Origin: Eubacteriaceae bacterium CHKCI004
GTDB lineage: Bacteria; Bacillota; Clostridia; Lachnospirales; Lachnospiraceae
NCBI GenBank assembly: GCA_900016875.1
Contig: FCNR01000023.1
Location: 62,001-126,000, forward strand
DNA length: 64,000 bases
Direction of reading: 5' to 3'
Below, piece by piece: positions 59,230 to 64,000 of the stretch. Numbering within the stretch: the stretch's first letter is position 1; each line of letters starts with the position of its first letter. The notes under the pieces were generated by a model, which had not been told where the DNA came from, did not search any database, and saw nothing but the letters and a program-made list of their open reading frames with translations. Both the position numbers and the translations under genes were made by a program.

Positions 59230-59691
59230 ATGTACGCACTACTTTGCTGTAATGACAGGAGACCATCAGCCGCAGGCCGCTCCTGTTTCCATAAAATATA
59301 TCATGAACATCCGGAAGCGGTGGAACCGGCAACCGCAGAGGCAATGACTCTAAAGCCGGCGGCATCTAAGCCGGCTGAGCTGACTTTAGCCGATGTTGTC
59401 CCTGGCCAGCACGCCGTCGTCTCTTCTCTGCTCTCCGGCGGAGACATGCGGCGCCGGCTTCTGGATATTGGTTTGACTCCCGGTACACAGATAAAATGTA
59501 TCGGGCAAAGTCCGCTAGGTGATCCGTCTGCCTTTCTCATTCGCGGCGCTGTGATCGCCCTGCGCCGGAAAGACTGCCGGGACATTCTGATTACCGGCGA
59601 CGGACAGAATAATTCATCCAGGTTCCTCTCTCCCGGATATAGAGAACACATTGACAGAAATCACGCGTCGGAGGCAGTATCATGGGACTAA
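59230..59691 (+). CDS. feoA: FeoA-domain protein of the ferrous iron system
   Basis: A 153-residue protein. The SH3-like FeoA domain is at about 50-122: LADVVPGQHAVVSSLLSGGD, MRRRLLDIGLTPGTQIKC, GDPSAFLIRGAVIALRRKD. FeoA binds or tunes FeoB. The first 38 residues (MYALLCCNDRRPSAAGRSCF) are not part of the family domain; an ATG at 59344 would remove them, but the ATG at 59230 has the far better AAGGAGG site. The 3' end overlaps feoB by 10 bp. Confidence 0.9.
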   Translation: MYALLCCNDRRPSAAGRSCFHKIYHEHPEAVEPATAEAMTLKPAASKPAELTLADVVPGQHAVVSSLLSGGDMRRRLLDIGLTPGTQIKCIGQSPLGDPSAFLIRGAVIALRRKDCRDILITGDGQNNSSRFLSPGYREHIDRNHASEAVSWD

Positions 59692-61091
59692 CCAATCAAT
59701 CTATCGGAATGCATACTCTGGATTCTGATCTTGTCGTTGTAAAAAAACATCCTTCTGATAAGGTTATCGCTCTGGCCGGCAATCCAAATGTGGGAAAAAG
59801 CACTATTTTCAATGCGCTCACCGGCATGAATCAGCATACGGGCAACTGGCCGGGCAAAACAGTTTCCAATGCGCAGGGGCATTGTGAATCCGAAAAAAAT
59901 TCTTATATTATGGTGGATATTCCAGGTACCTACTCACTGATGGCTCATTCTGCCGAAGAAGAGATTGCCAGAAACTTTATCTGTTTTGGAGAACCGGACG
60001 CTGTTGTGGTAGTCTGCGACGCCACCTGCCTTGAAAGGAATATGAATCTGGTCCTGCAGACCATGGAAATATCCTCCCGGGTCATTGTCTGCGTCAACTT
60101 GATGGATGAGGCCAGGCGCAAAAAAATCCGGCTGAATCTTCCGCTTCTTTCCCGCCGCCTGGGGGTTCCTGTCATTGGCACCTCCGCCCGGAAAAAAAGC
60201 TCCCTGGATGCTTTGCTCCACGCACTTGATCAGATAACCTCCCCCGCCTGCGAAACCCACCCCGCCAGAATCCATTATCCAAAAACCATTGAGCATGCCG
60301 TCCGGATGATCGAACCCCTCATCGAAGAAAAGACCGGCGGCAGACTCAACAGCCGCTGGCTGAGTCTCCGTCTTCTCTGTCAGGACAGCTCTCTTCTAAG
60401 AGAATTGTCCGGCTGTCTGGGAAATGATTTTCTCAGGGATCCGGAACTGCTCCGGGGCATAACTCTGGCAAGAAAACAGCTTTCCCGGGATATCAGCAGC
60501 CGGGAACAGTGGGACGATGCAGTCGCAGGCGCAATTGTCTCCACTGCTGAAAAACTGTGTAAGGATGTGATAACCTATGAGAATACCTCCTACCGGAAGC
60601 TGGATTTTACTGCGGACCGCCTTCTCACCAGCCGCATGACAGGCTTTCCTGTCATGCTCCTAATGCTGGCGCTTATATTCTGGATCACCATTTATGGCGC
60701 AAATTATCCGTCTGCTCTGCTTTCTGACGGTCTGTTCTTTATCCAGGACCGGCTTACGGATCTTTTTCAATGGCTTCACGCTCCCGACTGGCTTCATGGT
60801 CTTCTTGTATTAGGACTCTACCGGGTTCTCGCCTGGGTCGTTTCAGTGATGCTGCCGCCTATGGCTATTTTTTTCCCGCTTTTTACTTTGCTGGAAGACG
60901 CCGGCTATCTGCCCCGGATTGCCTACAATCTCGATAAACCTTTTCACTGTTGTCATGCCTGCGGCAAACAGGCACTGACCATGTGCATGGGCTTTTTGTC
61001 TGCGATTGCTCTAAGATTTTTCTTCGGTTTCTTCTCTTTTGTTGAGTCCCGACGGCTTTATGAGTTTCCCCTGTTTGGCCAGTTCAAATAA
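59682..61091 (+). pseudogene. feoB: feoB, 5' part, interrupted by a mobile element
   Basis: The Fe2+ transporter FeoB, cut after codon 438. The G-domain is complete: GNPNVGKSTIFNALTG (G1), VDIPGTYSLMAHSA (G3) and VNLMDEARR (G4), then the NFeoB helical domain and the first membrane helices (TGFPVMLLMLALIFWITIYG, LLVLGLYRVLAWVVSVMLPP). At ALTMCMGF (codons 431-438) the sequence enters the element; 31 foreign residues and a stop at 61091 follow, antisense to the lysozyme gene's 3' end. The 3' part continues in frame from 63666. The ATG at 59682 has GGAGG upstream. As it stands the gene cannot make a full FeoB; excision would repair it exactly. Confidence 0.93.
60979..60995. repeat. Left attachment core (attL)
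   Basis: CCATGTGCATGGGCTTT, identical to 63664-63680. It lies in the feoB codons for MCMGF. The inner CCATG-TG-CATGG is a dyad with a central TG, as expected for a serine-recombinase crossover site. Confidence 0.85.
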
Positions 61092-61868
61092 AGCCGATCT
61101 CACTTCTTTAGACTGACAATTTTCCGCCGCGATTCTGGACATATTTTTCTCACCGGCTCCAAATCCTCTGTTATGCAGAAACTCTGTAATATTGCTGACT
61201 GTTTGTTTTTTTATGGTGCTGAAATACTTCACATTATCTTCTCCTTCCGGCTTATCTGGTTTTTTATTCTGGGGAACAGCAAACCATGTCTCATCTTTTC
61301 CCTGACCGGTAATCCGATTCAGATCAATCTTTTCTCCGAATCCCGGACAAGTTCCATCGGAGGTGTACTGATGCAGATCTGCGCCCGCATGACACGGGTA
61401 AGACGAGCTGTATTTTCCATTATTAAGTCCATACCTGGCTTCCCACCAGGCACATCTGGACGGTCGTGCCGCTATGATATTTTTATATTTGTCATATTGT
61501 GCGTACATCGTGTAAATCATCATCTTCTCATTCAGTGTCTTCAGATAATCCATGGCCTTCTGTACGCCGGAGGCACTGTTTCCGGCCTCCACATCCAGAA
61601 TATATCCCATGAAATATTCTCCCACTTTGTCTTTGCACGTTTTTACCAGAAATCTCGCCTGCGCCAGTTCGTCCCCCTTGTTGAGATAAGCATAAAGCCA
61701 GTAAGAGATTCCTCTTTTTTCACATTGTCTCACAATCCCCTCCATGGCGCTGTCCACAAACGAGGTTCCCTGCGTTGCCTTTGTGATCAGAAACGGACAG
61801 TTCTTCTCCACCTCTTTCCAGTCTGCCACCGTATGATGATGAGAAATGTCCGGGTAATATTTACTCAT
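61011..61868 (-). CDS. GH25 lysozyme (phage-type endolysin)
   Basis: A 285-residue muramidase. The GH25 catalytic domain covers about 1-190: Asp7 in YYPDISHHH, FLITKATQG, SYWLYAYLNKGDELAQARF, and Asp92/Glu94 in MGYILDVEAGNS are the catalytic residues. DLHQYTSDGTCPGFGEKIDL is the usual end. The last 75 residues (about 210-275; KKQTVSNITEFLHNRGFGAG) form a helical module I do not recognise, probably for cell-wall binding. There is no signal peptide, so it needs the holin. It overlaps the holin gene by 8 bp and has AAGGAGGAG upstream. Confidence 0.92.
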   Translation of the reverse strand: MSKYYPDISHHHTVADWKEVEKNCPFLITKATQGTSFVDSAMEGIVRQCEKRGISYWLYAYLNKGDELAQARFLVKTCKDKVGEYFMGYILDVEAGNSASGVQKAMDYLKTLNEKMMIYTMYAQYDKYKNIIAARPSRCAWWEARYGLNNGKYSSSYPCHAGADLHQYTSDGTCPGFGEKIDLNRITGQGKDETWFAVPQNKKPDKPEGEDNVKYFSTIKKQTVSNITEFLHNRGFGAGEKNMSRIAAENCQSKEVRSALFELAKQGKLIKPSGLNKREETEEKS

Positions 61869-62079
61869 CTGACTCCTCCTTGCATTCCGGAAGTCCCGCC
61901 ACGGACGTAAGAAGCGAAATGACGCCCGCCAGGAGCGCCGTCGATATGGTCATCATCGTATCGACTTCTGAAAAAACTGTTGCCGTTCCTATGGCGGCTA
62001 CCGCTGTCTGCGCTACGGTCCGGGCGGCGCGAACTCCGGCGCATTTGAGCCATTTTTTTGTTTTAATGCTTATTTTCAT
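61861..62079 (-). CDS. Holin-like small membrane protein
   Basis: A 72-residue protein with a basic N-terminus (KISIKTKKWLKCAGVRAAR), two hydrophobic segments (TVAQTAVAAIGTATVF and MMTISTALLAGVISLLTSVA) and an acidic end. This is the size and pattern of a phage holin, and it lies directly before an endolysin. It would open the membrane so the GH25 enzyme reaches the wall. The ATG at 62079 has GGAGG 6-7 bp upstream; the ATG at 62085 abuts that site. Confidence 0.85.
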   Translation of the reverse strand: MKISIKTKKWLKCAGVRAARTVAQTAVAAIGTATVFSEVDTMMTISTALLAGVISLLTSVAGLPECKEESDE

Positions 62080-62236
62080 ATACATCCTCCATATTCGTTA
62101 CATTATTGTGCATATTTTGCCAAACTTCTTCCAGCATCTTGTAAAACTCTTCATTTTGTCCATTTCTTTTTATGAGAATATTTTCCGGTCTGTTTTGTTC
62201 TTTGCCATCATGCGTCCGGATTATAATTTTAGCCAT
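62063..62236 (-). CDS. Small protein upstream of the holin gene
   Basis: A 57-residue polar protein (MAKIIIRTHDGKEQNRPENI, then FYKMLEEVWQNMHNNV). I do not recognise it; phage lysis cassettes often carry an accessory protein of this size here. The ATG at 62236 has GGGGAGGGG upstream, and the stop overlaps the holin start by 17 bp, so the three genes form one coupled unit. Confidence 0.65.
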   Translation of the reverse strand: MAKIIIRTHDGKEQNRPENILIKRNGQNEEFYKMLEEVWQNMHNNVTNMEDVYENKH

Positions 62237-62438
62237 CGTGAATCCCCTCCCCTGTATCTGTATGCCGTAAGAATTGTCCATGTCCCTTTTTGTGAAAAAA
62301 ATCCCCCTTTGCATTAAGCGGCGCAAAATAAATACTTATGAGAATGATTTGCCGGCTGAGTCATACTCTAAAAAAGAACACAGAAAAATCTGCGGCCACA
62401 GACGCACAGCGCCATCTGCCGCAAAAGGAGGTCTCGTC

Positions 62439-63608
62439 ATGCCGACTGCCGCCTGTTATGTGCGGGTCTCCACAGAACATCAGCGGGAAAATTACAGTAT
62501 TCAGGAACAGATATCACGCCTCCGGGCATTCTGCGAAGCCAAAGATATTACCATCGGGAAATTTTACACGGACGGTGGATATTCCGGCGGCAATCTGAAC
62601 CGTCCGGCTCTTCAGGAAATGCTTGCTCACCTGACGGAGTATGATGTAGTCATCGTCTACAAGCTGGATCGGCTGTCCCGCAGTCAGAAAGATACGCTTC
62701 TGCTGATTGAAGATTATTTTCTTGCCAAGAAAGTAGATTTTATCTCTGTGTGTGAGAATTTTGACACTTCGACGCCGCTGGGCCGCGCCATGATCGGCAT
62801 GCTGTCTGTTTTTGCCCAGCTGGAAAAGGATCAGATTACAGAGCGTTTCACCATGGGCCGCATCGCCAGAGCAAAAAACGGATACTATCATGGCGGTTCC
62901 ACCGCTCCAACCGGCTACGACTATGTCAATGGCCGGCTCATCGTAAACAAAGATGCGGCAATGCAGGTGCGGGAGCTGTTCAAACGATTCCGTCAGGGTC
63001 ATTCCATCCATGACTGCTGGTTATATATGCAGTCCCGCTACGGCGCCGGCCCCAGCGGCTGGAGCAGTGAAACTCTCGTAAGAAATGTACTGCGCAACGA
63101 GGTGTACATCGGAAAAGTAAAATTTCAGCAGCAGTCTTATCCCGGCCGCCACACACCGCTCATCGACGAATCTCTTTTTTATGAAGTACAGGAAATGCTC
63201 CGTCGTGGTTCCAGGAACAATTCCACATCCGGTTCTCATTCTTCAGGCCGTCCTTTCGCACCGAGAACCCTGCTCTCCGGTCTTCTATGGTGCGGCAGGT
63301 GCGGCGCCCGGTTTCACGGAGAACACGGCAGCTATTCCTGTTACAGCCGCAGCAAGGGATCAAAAAAATATATACGGGATCCCCATTGCCAAAACCGTAA
63401 ATGGAAGATTAGCGAACTGGACTCTCTCATCATTCATACAGTATGCCATATGCATTTTGAAAAAGACGATACCGCCGTTCTTTCTCCTGGCGATGCCCTT
63501 GAGCGTTTGCTGACAGAAGGCCCTCTCATCAGAAAACGTGCCTGCCTGTCTCTCCTCATCGAGAAAATATATCTGGATGACGATGAAATCACCATTTTTC
63601 TCCGGTAA
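62439..63608 (+). CDS. Large serine recombinase of the feoB element
   Basis: A 389-residue recombinase, short for its class. The resolvase domain (about 3-150) has the nucleophile Ser11 in CYVRVSTEHQREN, YTDGGYSGGNLNRPALQEML, VYKLDRLSRSQKD, and MIGMLSVFAQLEKDQITERF. A recombinase domain (YYHGGSTAPTGYDYVNGRLI) and a zinc ribbon (GLLWCGRCGARFHGEHG then SCYSRSKGSK) follow. The coiled-coil tail that controls direction in many integrases looks very short. The ATG at 62439 has AAAGGAGG upstream; earlier in-frame ATGs run back into the divergent promoter region. It is the likely enzyme for excision and integration at the 17-bp core. Confidence 0.94.
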   Translation: MPTAACYVRVSTEHQRENYSIQEQISRLRAFCEAKDITIGKFYTDGGYSGGNLNRPALQEMLAHLTEYDVVIVYKLDRLSRSQKDTLLLIEDYFLAKKVDFISVCENFDTSTPLGRAMIGMLSVFAQLEKDQITERFTMGRIARAKNGYYHGGSTAPTGYDYVNGRLIVNKDAAMQVRELFKRFRQGHSIHDCWLYMQSRYGAGPSGWSSETLVRNVLRNEVYIGKVKFQQQSYPGRHTPLIDESLFYEVQEMLRRGSRNNSTSGSHSSGRPFAPRTLLSGLLWCGRCGARFHGEHGSYSCYSRSKGSKKYIRDPHCQNRKWKISELDSLIIHTVCHMHFEKDDTAVLSPGDALERLLTEGPLIRKRACLSLLIEKIYLDDDEITIFLR

Positions 63609-63663
63609 ACAGACTTTCATATTATAGGAATTCCAGCAAAATTTCCTATCAATTAAAAAAAGC

Positions 63664-63680
63664 CCATGTGCATGGGCTTT
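63664..63680. repeat. Right attachment core (attR)
   Basis: The same 17 bases as 60979-60995. On the element side the dyad extends outward (AAAAAGCCCATG before the central TG), so the excised circle would hold a 12-bp-armed palindrome. feoB resumes after it. Confidence 0.85.
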
Positions 63681-64000
63681 GGCTGCAATGCGGCGGGCGT
63701 GGTAGGGTGCCGTATTATCGACTCGCCGCGGGAACGGCTGCTGGCCATACTGACAAACAGTTTCGTGCCGTGCAACGGACGCTTTCCGACTTTGATCGCT
63801 CTTATCACGATGTTTTTCGTGGGAACAGGAGGCTCATTCGGAGATTCTGTATTGTCATCCTTTATGCTCACCGGCGTGATCGTGTTCAGTGTCGGAATCA
63901 CTTTTTTTGTGACAAGATTTCTGTCCGGCACAATCCTGAAAGGAGTTCCCTCTTCTTTTACCCTGGAGCTGCCGCCTTACCGCTGTCCGCAGGTGGGCAA
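63666..64000 (+). pseudogene. feoB: feoB, 3' part (continues past the right edge)
   Basis: From the ATG at 63666 the frame is open to the window end (111 codons): MCMGFGCNAAGVVGCRIIDS, AILTNSFVPCNGRFPTLIA and FVGTGGSFGDSVLSSFML. These are the conserved FeoB core segments after the Gate motif, missing from the 5' part. It has no start or ribosome-binding site of its own. The reading frame matches codon 434 of the 5' part exactly, so the two are halves of one gene. The C-terminal Gate and FeoC-like region lie outside the window. Confidence 0.93.

Follow-up and report, generated by a model that had tools for sequence, protein, structure and literature searches.

The window analyzed here, 64,000 nucleotides of Eubacteriaceae bacterium CHKCI004 corresponding to bases 62001-126000 of one contig in a 3.99-Mb genome of 86 contigs, ends in an iron transport locus where the feoB gene is split by a compact element carrying its own serine recombinase. 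The feoA gene (59230-59691, plus strand; Pfam FeoA, E 4e-17) lies upstream, and the N-terminal part of feoB (59682-60978, plus strand; Pfam FeoB_N, E 6.8e-58, and FeoB_Cyto, E 3.8e-12) starts with MGLTNQS at 59682 and ends at an attachment (att) core, with its open frame running on into the element as far as 61091. As reported in an initial annotation of this stretch and confirmed here by coordinates, FeoB sequence is lost after ALTMCMGF, the F of which is codon 438, and resumes 2,685 bp on; the ATG of MCM at 60981 is codon 434, so that the interruption spans codons 434-438, and FeoB sequence picks up again at 63666 with MCMGFGCNAAGVVG. The C-terminal part (63664-64000, plus strand) extends past the window and comprises 287 codons counted from 63666. 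Both junctions share the 17-bp direct repeat CCATGTGCATGGGCTTT (60979-60995 and 63664-63680, 2,685 bp from start to start), an identity with a chance of 4^-17, or 6e-11, at two given positions, and the element itself, including one repeat copy, occupies 60979-63663. Removal of one repeat and the interior in silico joins the flanks into an unbroken FeoB of 720 residues, most of its C-terminal part coming from beyond the window, next to 714 residues, counted from the first Met, for the intact orthologue in genome G008. A coding gene is here interrupted between direct-repeat att cores and regains its full frame on precise in silico removal of the insert.

The recombinase gene that the initial annotation placed inside the element is found at 62439-63608 on the plus strand and encodes 389 residues in which Pfam recognizes the Resolvase, Recombinase, and Zn-ribbon domains. 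It is of the A118/LI type (match to structure 4KIS at E 2.8e-14; 38.5% identity to the A118 integrase), and residues R9, S11, and D77-R81, which we take to be those of the catalytic region, are invariant in five aligned rows together with C285, C288, C301, and C317, presumably the Zn-ribbon cysteines. Unmentioned in the initial annotation was the cargo, which is encoded on the minus strand, divergently from the recombinase: a glycoside hydrolase family 25 (GH25) endolysin of 285 residues (61011-61868; Pfam PF01183, E 4.9e-19; PHROG endolysin), an r1t-type phage holin of 74 residues (61861-62085; Pfam PF16945, E 5.7e-13; PHROG holin), and a small conserved open reading frame (ORF), orf58, of 57 residues (62063-62236; family A3). 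No head, tail, packaging, or replication gene is recognized in the element by Pfam or PHROG, its content being limited to the recombinase, lysin, holin, and small ORF.

Among the 24 genomes of the genus, eight encode this FeoB at E <= 1e-60; the gene is intact in three (G004, G006, and G008) and split at the same codon in five (G000, the genome analyzed here, and G009, G022, G014, and G007). Four of the 24 (G000, G009, G022, and G014) carry at this codon a mini-element with an identical order of lysin, holin, and small ORF opposite the recombinase, and in all four the lysin residues D7, D92, E94, and D182, to which we assign a catalytic role, are invariant. The fifth, G007, has another element with a related full-length recombinase interrupted by an internal stop and with other cargo; by eye, this 5.2-kb insert (L052 7482-12669, C164) includes a HicA/HicB-like pair and a large ATPase-like ORF. 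The mini-elements measure 2,685, 2,908, 2,717, and 3,607 bp and the G007 element 5,187 bp. That 2,685 is divisible by three, which had been offered as evidence for excision, is irrelevant because excision between direct repeats restores the frame at any insert length: the mini-elements leave 0, 1, 2, and 1 modulo 3, and only 2,685 and 5,187 among the five lengths are multiples of three. The minimal core common to the five occupied sites, CCATG-TG-CATGG, is a palindrome around the non-palindromic dinucleotide TG, an arrangement that fits serine recombinase crossover. In the reconstructed attP, the P' half-site CATGGGCTTTTT (60986-60997, plus strand) and the P half-site AAAAAGCCCATG (63657-63668, plus strand) form a perfect 12-bp inverted repeat centered on TG; the arms are perfect also in G009 (12 bp) and in G022 (14 bp), where both depart together from those of G000 and G009, and they are imperfect in G014 and G007.

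The four mini-element hosts form one clade on rpoB (97/99, 14 rows, in a careful tree that leaves out G012 and G017 and in which the G007 row is half filled), and the four mini-element recombinases likewise form one clade (100/99, 13 rows). Flanking genes are syntenic on both sides in G022 and G014 and on the upstream side in G009, where the contig ends inside feoB: the DUF4097 gene upstream, beside feoA, also occurs in G009, G022, and G014, an MGS-domain gene between it and feoA only in G009 and G022, and the downstream ABC-transporter and two-component genes are shared with G022 and G014 at 80-99% identity. For the element genes, synonymous divergence (dS) among the four lies at 1.24-1.70 (recombinase), 1.15-1.82 (lysin, one pair saturated), and 0.86-1.48 (holin), next to 1.17-1.68 for feoB, 0.48-0.58 for rpoB, and 0.59-1.18 for spoIVA. 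Because dS of the element genes is not below that of the host genes, the element seems no younger than the separation of the species and does not look like a recent arrival, and vertical inheritance is the best fit to the data.

The split feoB halves, the recombinase, the holin, and the lysin are under purifying selection. With dS near saturation the nonsynonymous-to-synonymous ratios (omega) are approximate; among the four hosts they amount to 0.075-0.186 for the N-terminal and 0.055-0.154 for the C-terminal part of feoB (the latter 227 codons long in G009, up to the contig end), 0.131-0.241 for the recombinase, 0.049-0.114 for the lysin (five of six pairs computable), and 0.038-0.136 for the holin. 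The three computable pairs of intact feoB genes give 0.119, 0.132, and 0.153, the four aligned codons of the G004 C-terminal part and the partial G006 N-terminal part having been dropped or giving weak comparisons, and this range is exceeded by only three N-terminal pairs, all with G014 (0.178-0.186), and one C-terminal pair (0.154). Neither half contains a stop in any of the four hosts (the G009 C-terminal part being shortened by the contig end), against a neutral expectation of 4.4-7.9 stops on average per lineage in 280 codons at 0.25-0.6 changes per site per lineage. An element fixed in close relatives with feoB decaying, the outcome named beforehand as speaking against a switch, is thus not what a comparison of feoB in the four related hosts reveals. 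Provided that the insertion dates back as far as the host clade, feoB was under selection in its split state, a deduction that depends on vertical inheritance of the insertion and is weakest for G014. Furthermore, no Shine-Dalgarno motif precedes the first ATG of the C-terminal part in any of the four mini-element hosts, which makes separate translation of the halves look unlikely, and an independently translated C-terminal part was rejected as a candidate on these grounds.

Insertions recur at this feoB site, a hot spot that other elements with related recombinases occupy in G007, G262, G303, G065, and G224. At E <= 1e-75 the recombinase is found in 18 of 397 family genomes, and the four best matches (G000, G262, G224, and G303) all sit in feoB; around the 14 weaker ones feoB was not found in stretches of 2.8-4.4 kb, which can miss it, as the first G303 stretch did, and near the G208 and G049 recombinases it was not found in larger stretches either. 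In G065, which belongs to another family, a related full-length recombinase adjoins a feoB that is cut at this position as well, in opposite orientation and at a contig end. In G224 (L102 5517-5630, C50) the feoB match ends 38 residues into the C-terminal part behind a full-length recombinase and looks like decay. The remnant of about 10.7 kb at the same feoB site in G262, of another genus (L100 7885-18546, C7), has a holin gene on its left side, along with endolysin-like (weak), scaffold-like, and weakly tail-like genes, and a full-length recombinase on its right; it appears to be a larger remnant of the same plan and a plausible intermediate between phage and mini-element, and the parent was therefore most likely a feoB-targeting prophage. 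Searched as a single query against the viral_contigs collection, the recombinase returned no intact parent phage; a recombinase alignment retrieved six distant loci there, the best, L094, at 56% and with no feoB found at its locus, and neither the lysin nor the small ORF had a match in that collection. In the phages collection the recombinase has its best match at 45.6% and the lysin at 51.9%. The recombinase match (OM735687.1, 16445-17497) belongs to a phage listed under Stenotrophomonas, and of the 15 phage rows shown the 13 others, besides this record and its twin, are phages of Firmicutes. A metagenome-assembled contig carries two copies of a distantly related recombinase within 12 kb (L048 3342-4331 and 9468-10457), both 42.6% identical to the element recombinase and with the same E-value. 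A lysin search that covered a minority of the genus turned up a relative (58%) in another of its genomes, G005 (C1:1530851-1531465, L087), which has one stop and is not adjacent to feoB.

The mini-element recombinases differ from their relatives in one conspicuous respect. The match of the element recombinase to 4KIS extends to chain position 209 of 328, short of the end of the coiled coil, and that of the full-length G065 enzyme to 319; a coiled-coil segment with an LYQxG tip is present in five of five other feoB-site recombinases and in none of the four mini-elements, which have short or Pro/Gly-rich linkers where it would be expected (the tip could not be scored in two further recombinases, those of L094 and G208). 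The coiled-coil motif of large serine integrases, embedded in the zinc domain, is missing from the mini-elements. The effect of such a loss has been described for the LI integrase, where a variant lacking residues 342-416 is reported to bind DNA with the affinity of the wild type, to recombine all four site pairs within one molecule, including attL x attR without a directionality factor, and to remain at background for all four pairs between molecules, with no integration (PMC3783163). With this precedent, we predict that the element recombinase is probably excision-only.

The small ORF is, judging by its sequence distribution, a partner of this recombinase lineage. In the five genus genomes with a split feoB it encodes 44-76 residues, is divergent from the recombinase, and by eye mostly has a purine-rich ribosome site; it has no Pfam or PHROG match. 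A profile built without the G000 sequence matched G000 at E 8.9e-13 and matched all covering loci of G000, G009, G022, G014, and G007 as well as G303, G224, and G262, and did not find the ORF in G065 or L094. Across 299 family genomes searched it occurs in G000, G303, G262, and G224, all with a feoB-site recombinase, apart from a marginal match in G175 (5e-4) inside a 441-residue frame that by eye reads like CpaF. It may be a directionality factor or a regulator; the former is a guess, helped by the precedent of the 58-residue SprB.

The divergent control region offers few clues to a trigger. Low iron and DNA damage had been suggested as conditions for excision, and this was not borne out: in the divergent region of the four mini-element hosts and ahead of feoA in G000 and G009, no Fur or LexA box scored above shuffled sequences, the nearest to a signal being a LexA-like 8/10 match in G014 that a fraction of 0.09 of shuffles, the lowest obtained, also reached, and both boxes were rejected as triggers. 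A sigma-70 promoter scan of 60900-63800 likewise gave no excess (3 found versus 3.7 expected). By eye, (T/G)GGACA-16-(T/G)ATACAGG upstream of the small ORF, common to three species (62237-62290 and its L051 and L053 equivalents) and not listed by the consensus scan, resembles a vegetative promoter and overlaps a near-palindrome, perhaps an operator site. Upstream of the recombinase lies a motif resembling those of mother-cell sigma factors, GAAT-16-CATACTCTA (62342-62370, plus strand). Among 10 recombinases tested, CATANNNTA, chosen after looking, occurs in the upstream 250 nt of 6, versus 3 of 70 window ORFs of at least 150 residues, with per-sequence shuffle fractions of 0.02-0.29. Of the 8 elements with a small ORF, 6 have it, 26-77 nt ahead of the recombinase; it is absent in G022, G224, G065, and L094. 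When a -35 is also required, the count becomes 4 of 10 (4 of 8 with the small ORF) versus 8 of 70. Upstream regions of spoIVA (3 of 5 genomes with a start found) and sigK (5 of 8), controls that exclude spoIVA of G000 and G022 and sigK of G262, G224, and G303, contain CATATACT or CATATATT and not CATANNNTA, and the -35 pattern used has no match upstream of either. In the four hosts spoIVA scores above its cut-off and sigK-like matches fall slightly below theirs, so by gene content they are spore-formers; mother-cell sigma control of the recombinase is suggestive, a lead rather than a result.

In light of these observations, we consider it fairly probable that the insert is an old, inherited gene-intervening element of the skin kind, reduced from a prophage and probably excision-only, whose excision restores feoB. 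The element is real, apparently old, and probably functional; it sits in an unusual host gene, its recombinase is altered in an unusual way, and it has retained a lysis cassette. That the split gene has not decayed leads us to propose that the remnant is probably excised on demand, and selection on feoB while split, together with the missing Shine-Dalgarno motif, is most simply read as rejoining of the gene by excision in some cells; this excision, its one-way nature, the cell type, and the role of the lysis genes are what we infer. A prophage would have integrated at the conserved feoB site, with TG as the central dinucleotide of CCATG-TG-CATGG, and been reduced to about 2.7 kb in the ancestor of the four related species, retaining the lysis cassette divergent from the serine recombinase, and the reduced element would have been inherited in place since then. 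Its recombinase would have lost the coiled coil that permits integration and blocks attL x attR, and would act as an excision-only resolvase by intramolecular loop-out that needs no directionality factor from a phage; the conserved small ORF might assist or regulate the reaction. Excision would restore the 720-residue FeoB, the rebuilt gene being what selection sees. Since the enzyme is not expected to put the element back, the empty allele would have taken over unless excision is rare or limited to dead-end cells, such as the mother cell during sporulation. Beyond this, and tentatively, the element may be a domesticated module of terminal cells, in which irreversible, factor-free excision rebuilds the iron transporter and is coupled through the shared divergent control region to holin-endolysin lysis of the same cell, for instance to free the spore; we regard this extension as unlikely. 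The initial interpretation is partly supported. Only this feoB copy would be switched, and not ferrous iron uptake overall, the gene being one of three long FeoB genes, of which the other two have frames of 672 and 738 residues.

Several observations count against excision from an inherited element. In the one genome compared per species, neither an excised junction nor a circle was seen. Besides the approximate omega values and the two further long FeoB frames in the genome, the others concern the enzyme and genome G014. A single-molecule study reports, for LI without its coiled coil, weaker binding and only 2.2% attL x attR and 1.6% attP x attB recombination, and an inactive phiC31 integrase once the coiled coil, needed there for recombination, is removed (PMC10754689), and it is a real alternative that the lost coiled coil means a weak or dead enzyme. 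G014 and G022 are near-identical on rpoB (pN 0.005), yet their feoB N-terminal parts are only 65% identical; this part of G014 is more diverged than the flanking genes, the FeoB tree leaves G014 unresolved with G008 and G007 and apart from the other three, and a grouping of the four hosts on that tree is neither rejected nor demonstrated (approximately unbiased test, p 0.18). The G014 genome also has 7% contamination, and the attP arms there are the imperfect ones among the mini-elements. Finally, the G007 recombinase has a stop and yet its feoB halves are open.

An insert that is simply a dead-end defective prophage, left as two ends by an internal deletion and having knocked out feoB3 in a cell for which two other FeoB suffice, would account for the gene order, with lysis genes beside attL and the integrase beside attR, for the larger G262 remnant at the same site, and for the G224 feoB, whose matches end 38 residues into the C-terminal part; coiled-coil loss could then be decay. 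This we hold to be unlikely, as it leaves unexplained why feoB halves, recombinase, lysin, and holin all remain under purifying selection at dS near or above 1, without stops and with invariant Zn-ribbon cysteines and catalytic-region residues, and why the att arms are symmetrical and in G022 differ as a pair. The hot-spot character of the site, occupied by other elements in G007, G262, G303, G065, and G224, and the unexpectedly diverged G014 feoB, which does not clearly join the other three, would agree with repeated recent entry of a small mobile element into an intact feoB, selected until lately in each species; however, the same gene set and the same coiled-coil loss are confined to one host clade with one neighborhood, element dS is not below that of host genes, and LI without its coiled coil loses intermolecular integration, and we judge such a history improbable. 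Selection might also act on the lysis cassette, serving programmed lysis of the host, with feoB a mere landing site whose halves work together or persist otherwise. The low omega of lysin and holin (0.038-0.136) in an element with no recognized phage structural gene would be in keeping with this, but selection on the recombinase and on a C-terminal part without its own ribosome site, as well as the symmetrical att arms, would go unexplained, which makes it highly improbable.

The likeness to skin in sigK and to the comK prophage drawn in the initial annotation holds for the layout: att sites are present, the recombinase frame is open and has its zinc and catalytic-region residues, and the split host gene has not decayed. 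Among enzymes whose C-terminal domain has been solved, the integrase of Listeria phage A118 (4KIS), the prophage of which inserts in comK, matches most closely; the present element has no phage genome, and its recombinase match ends before the end of the coiled coil. The skin element in sigK of Clostridioides difficile is likewise described as a large serine recombinase element that splits a gene of a spore-former and restores its frame on excision; its recombinase has the coiled coil and excision requires the directionality factor CD1234 (PMC5025042), whereas the coiled coil is missing here, so that directionality is likely unlike that of skin. The host gene also differs, as feoB serves ferrous iron transport and is not a sporulation gene, and the present element retains lysis genes. 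In Bacillus subtilis, the serine recombinase SprA and its 58-residue partner SprB reconstitute spsM, and SPbeta minimized to SprA and SprB is reported still to excise in sporulation (PMC4191935); SPbeta is there a full prophage, in contrast to the reduced element here. The gin element in gerE of Bacillus cereus is described as intervening without phage structural genes and with a serine recombinase and the partner GirX (PMC5595907), the element here consisting instead of one recombinase and phage lysis genes. The intragenic yin of Clostridium botulinum, for which integrated and circular forms are reported from one culture, is prophage-like and sits in the sporulation gene yabG (PMC10747680), again unlike an element in feoB. 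A literature search at the level of titles and abstract openings found no report of feoB interrupted by a prophage with a serine recombinase.

Should excision be confirmed, gene-intervening elements would extend to a metal transporter, and one of them would have been kept through speciation in reduced form. The element would then also be a naturally occurring equivalent of the engineered coiled-coil deletion, suggesting that evolution may have made an excision-only enzyme in the same manner; nature would thereby offer a test of the coiled-coil gate model, and a compact one-way recombinase of 389 residues with a short symmetrical site would become available. The retained lysis genes, in turn, raise the question of why a bacterium conserves a phage lysis cassette without the phage.

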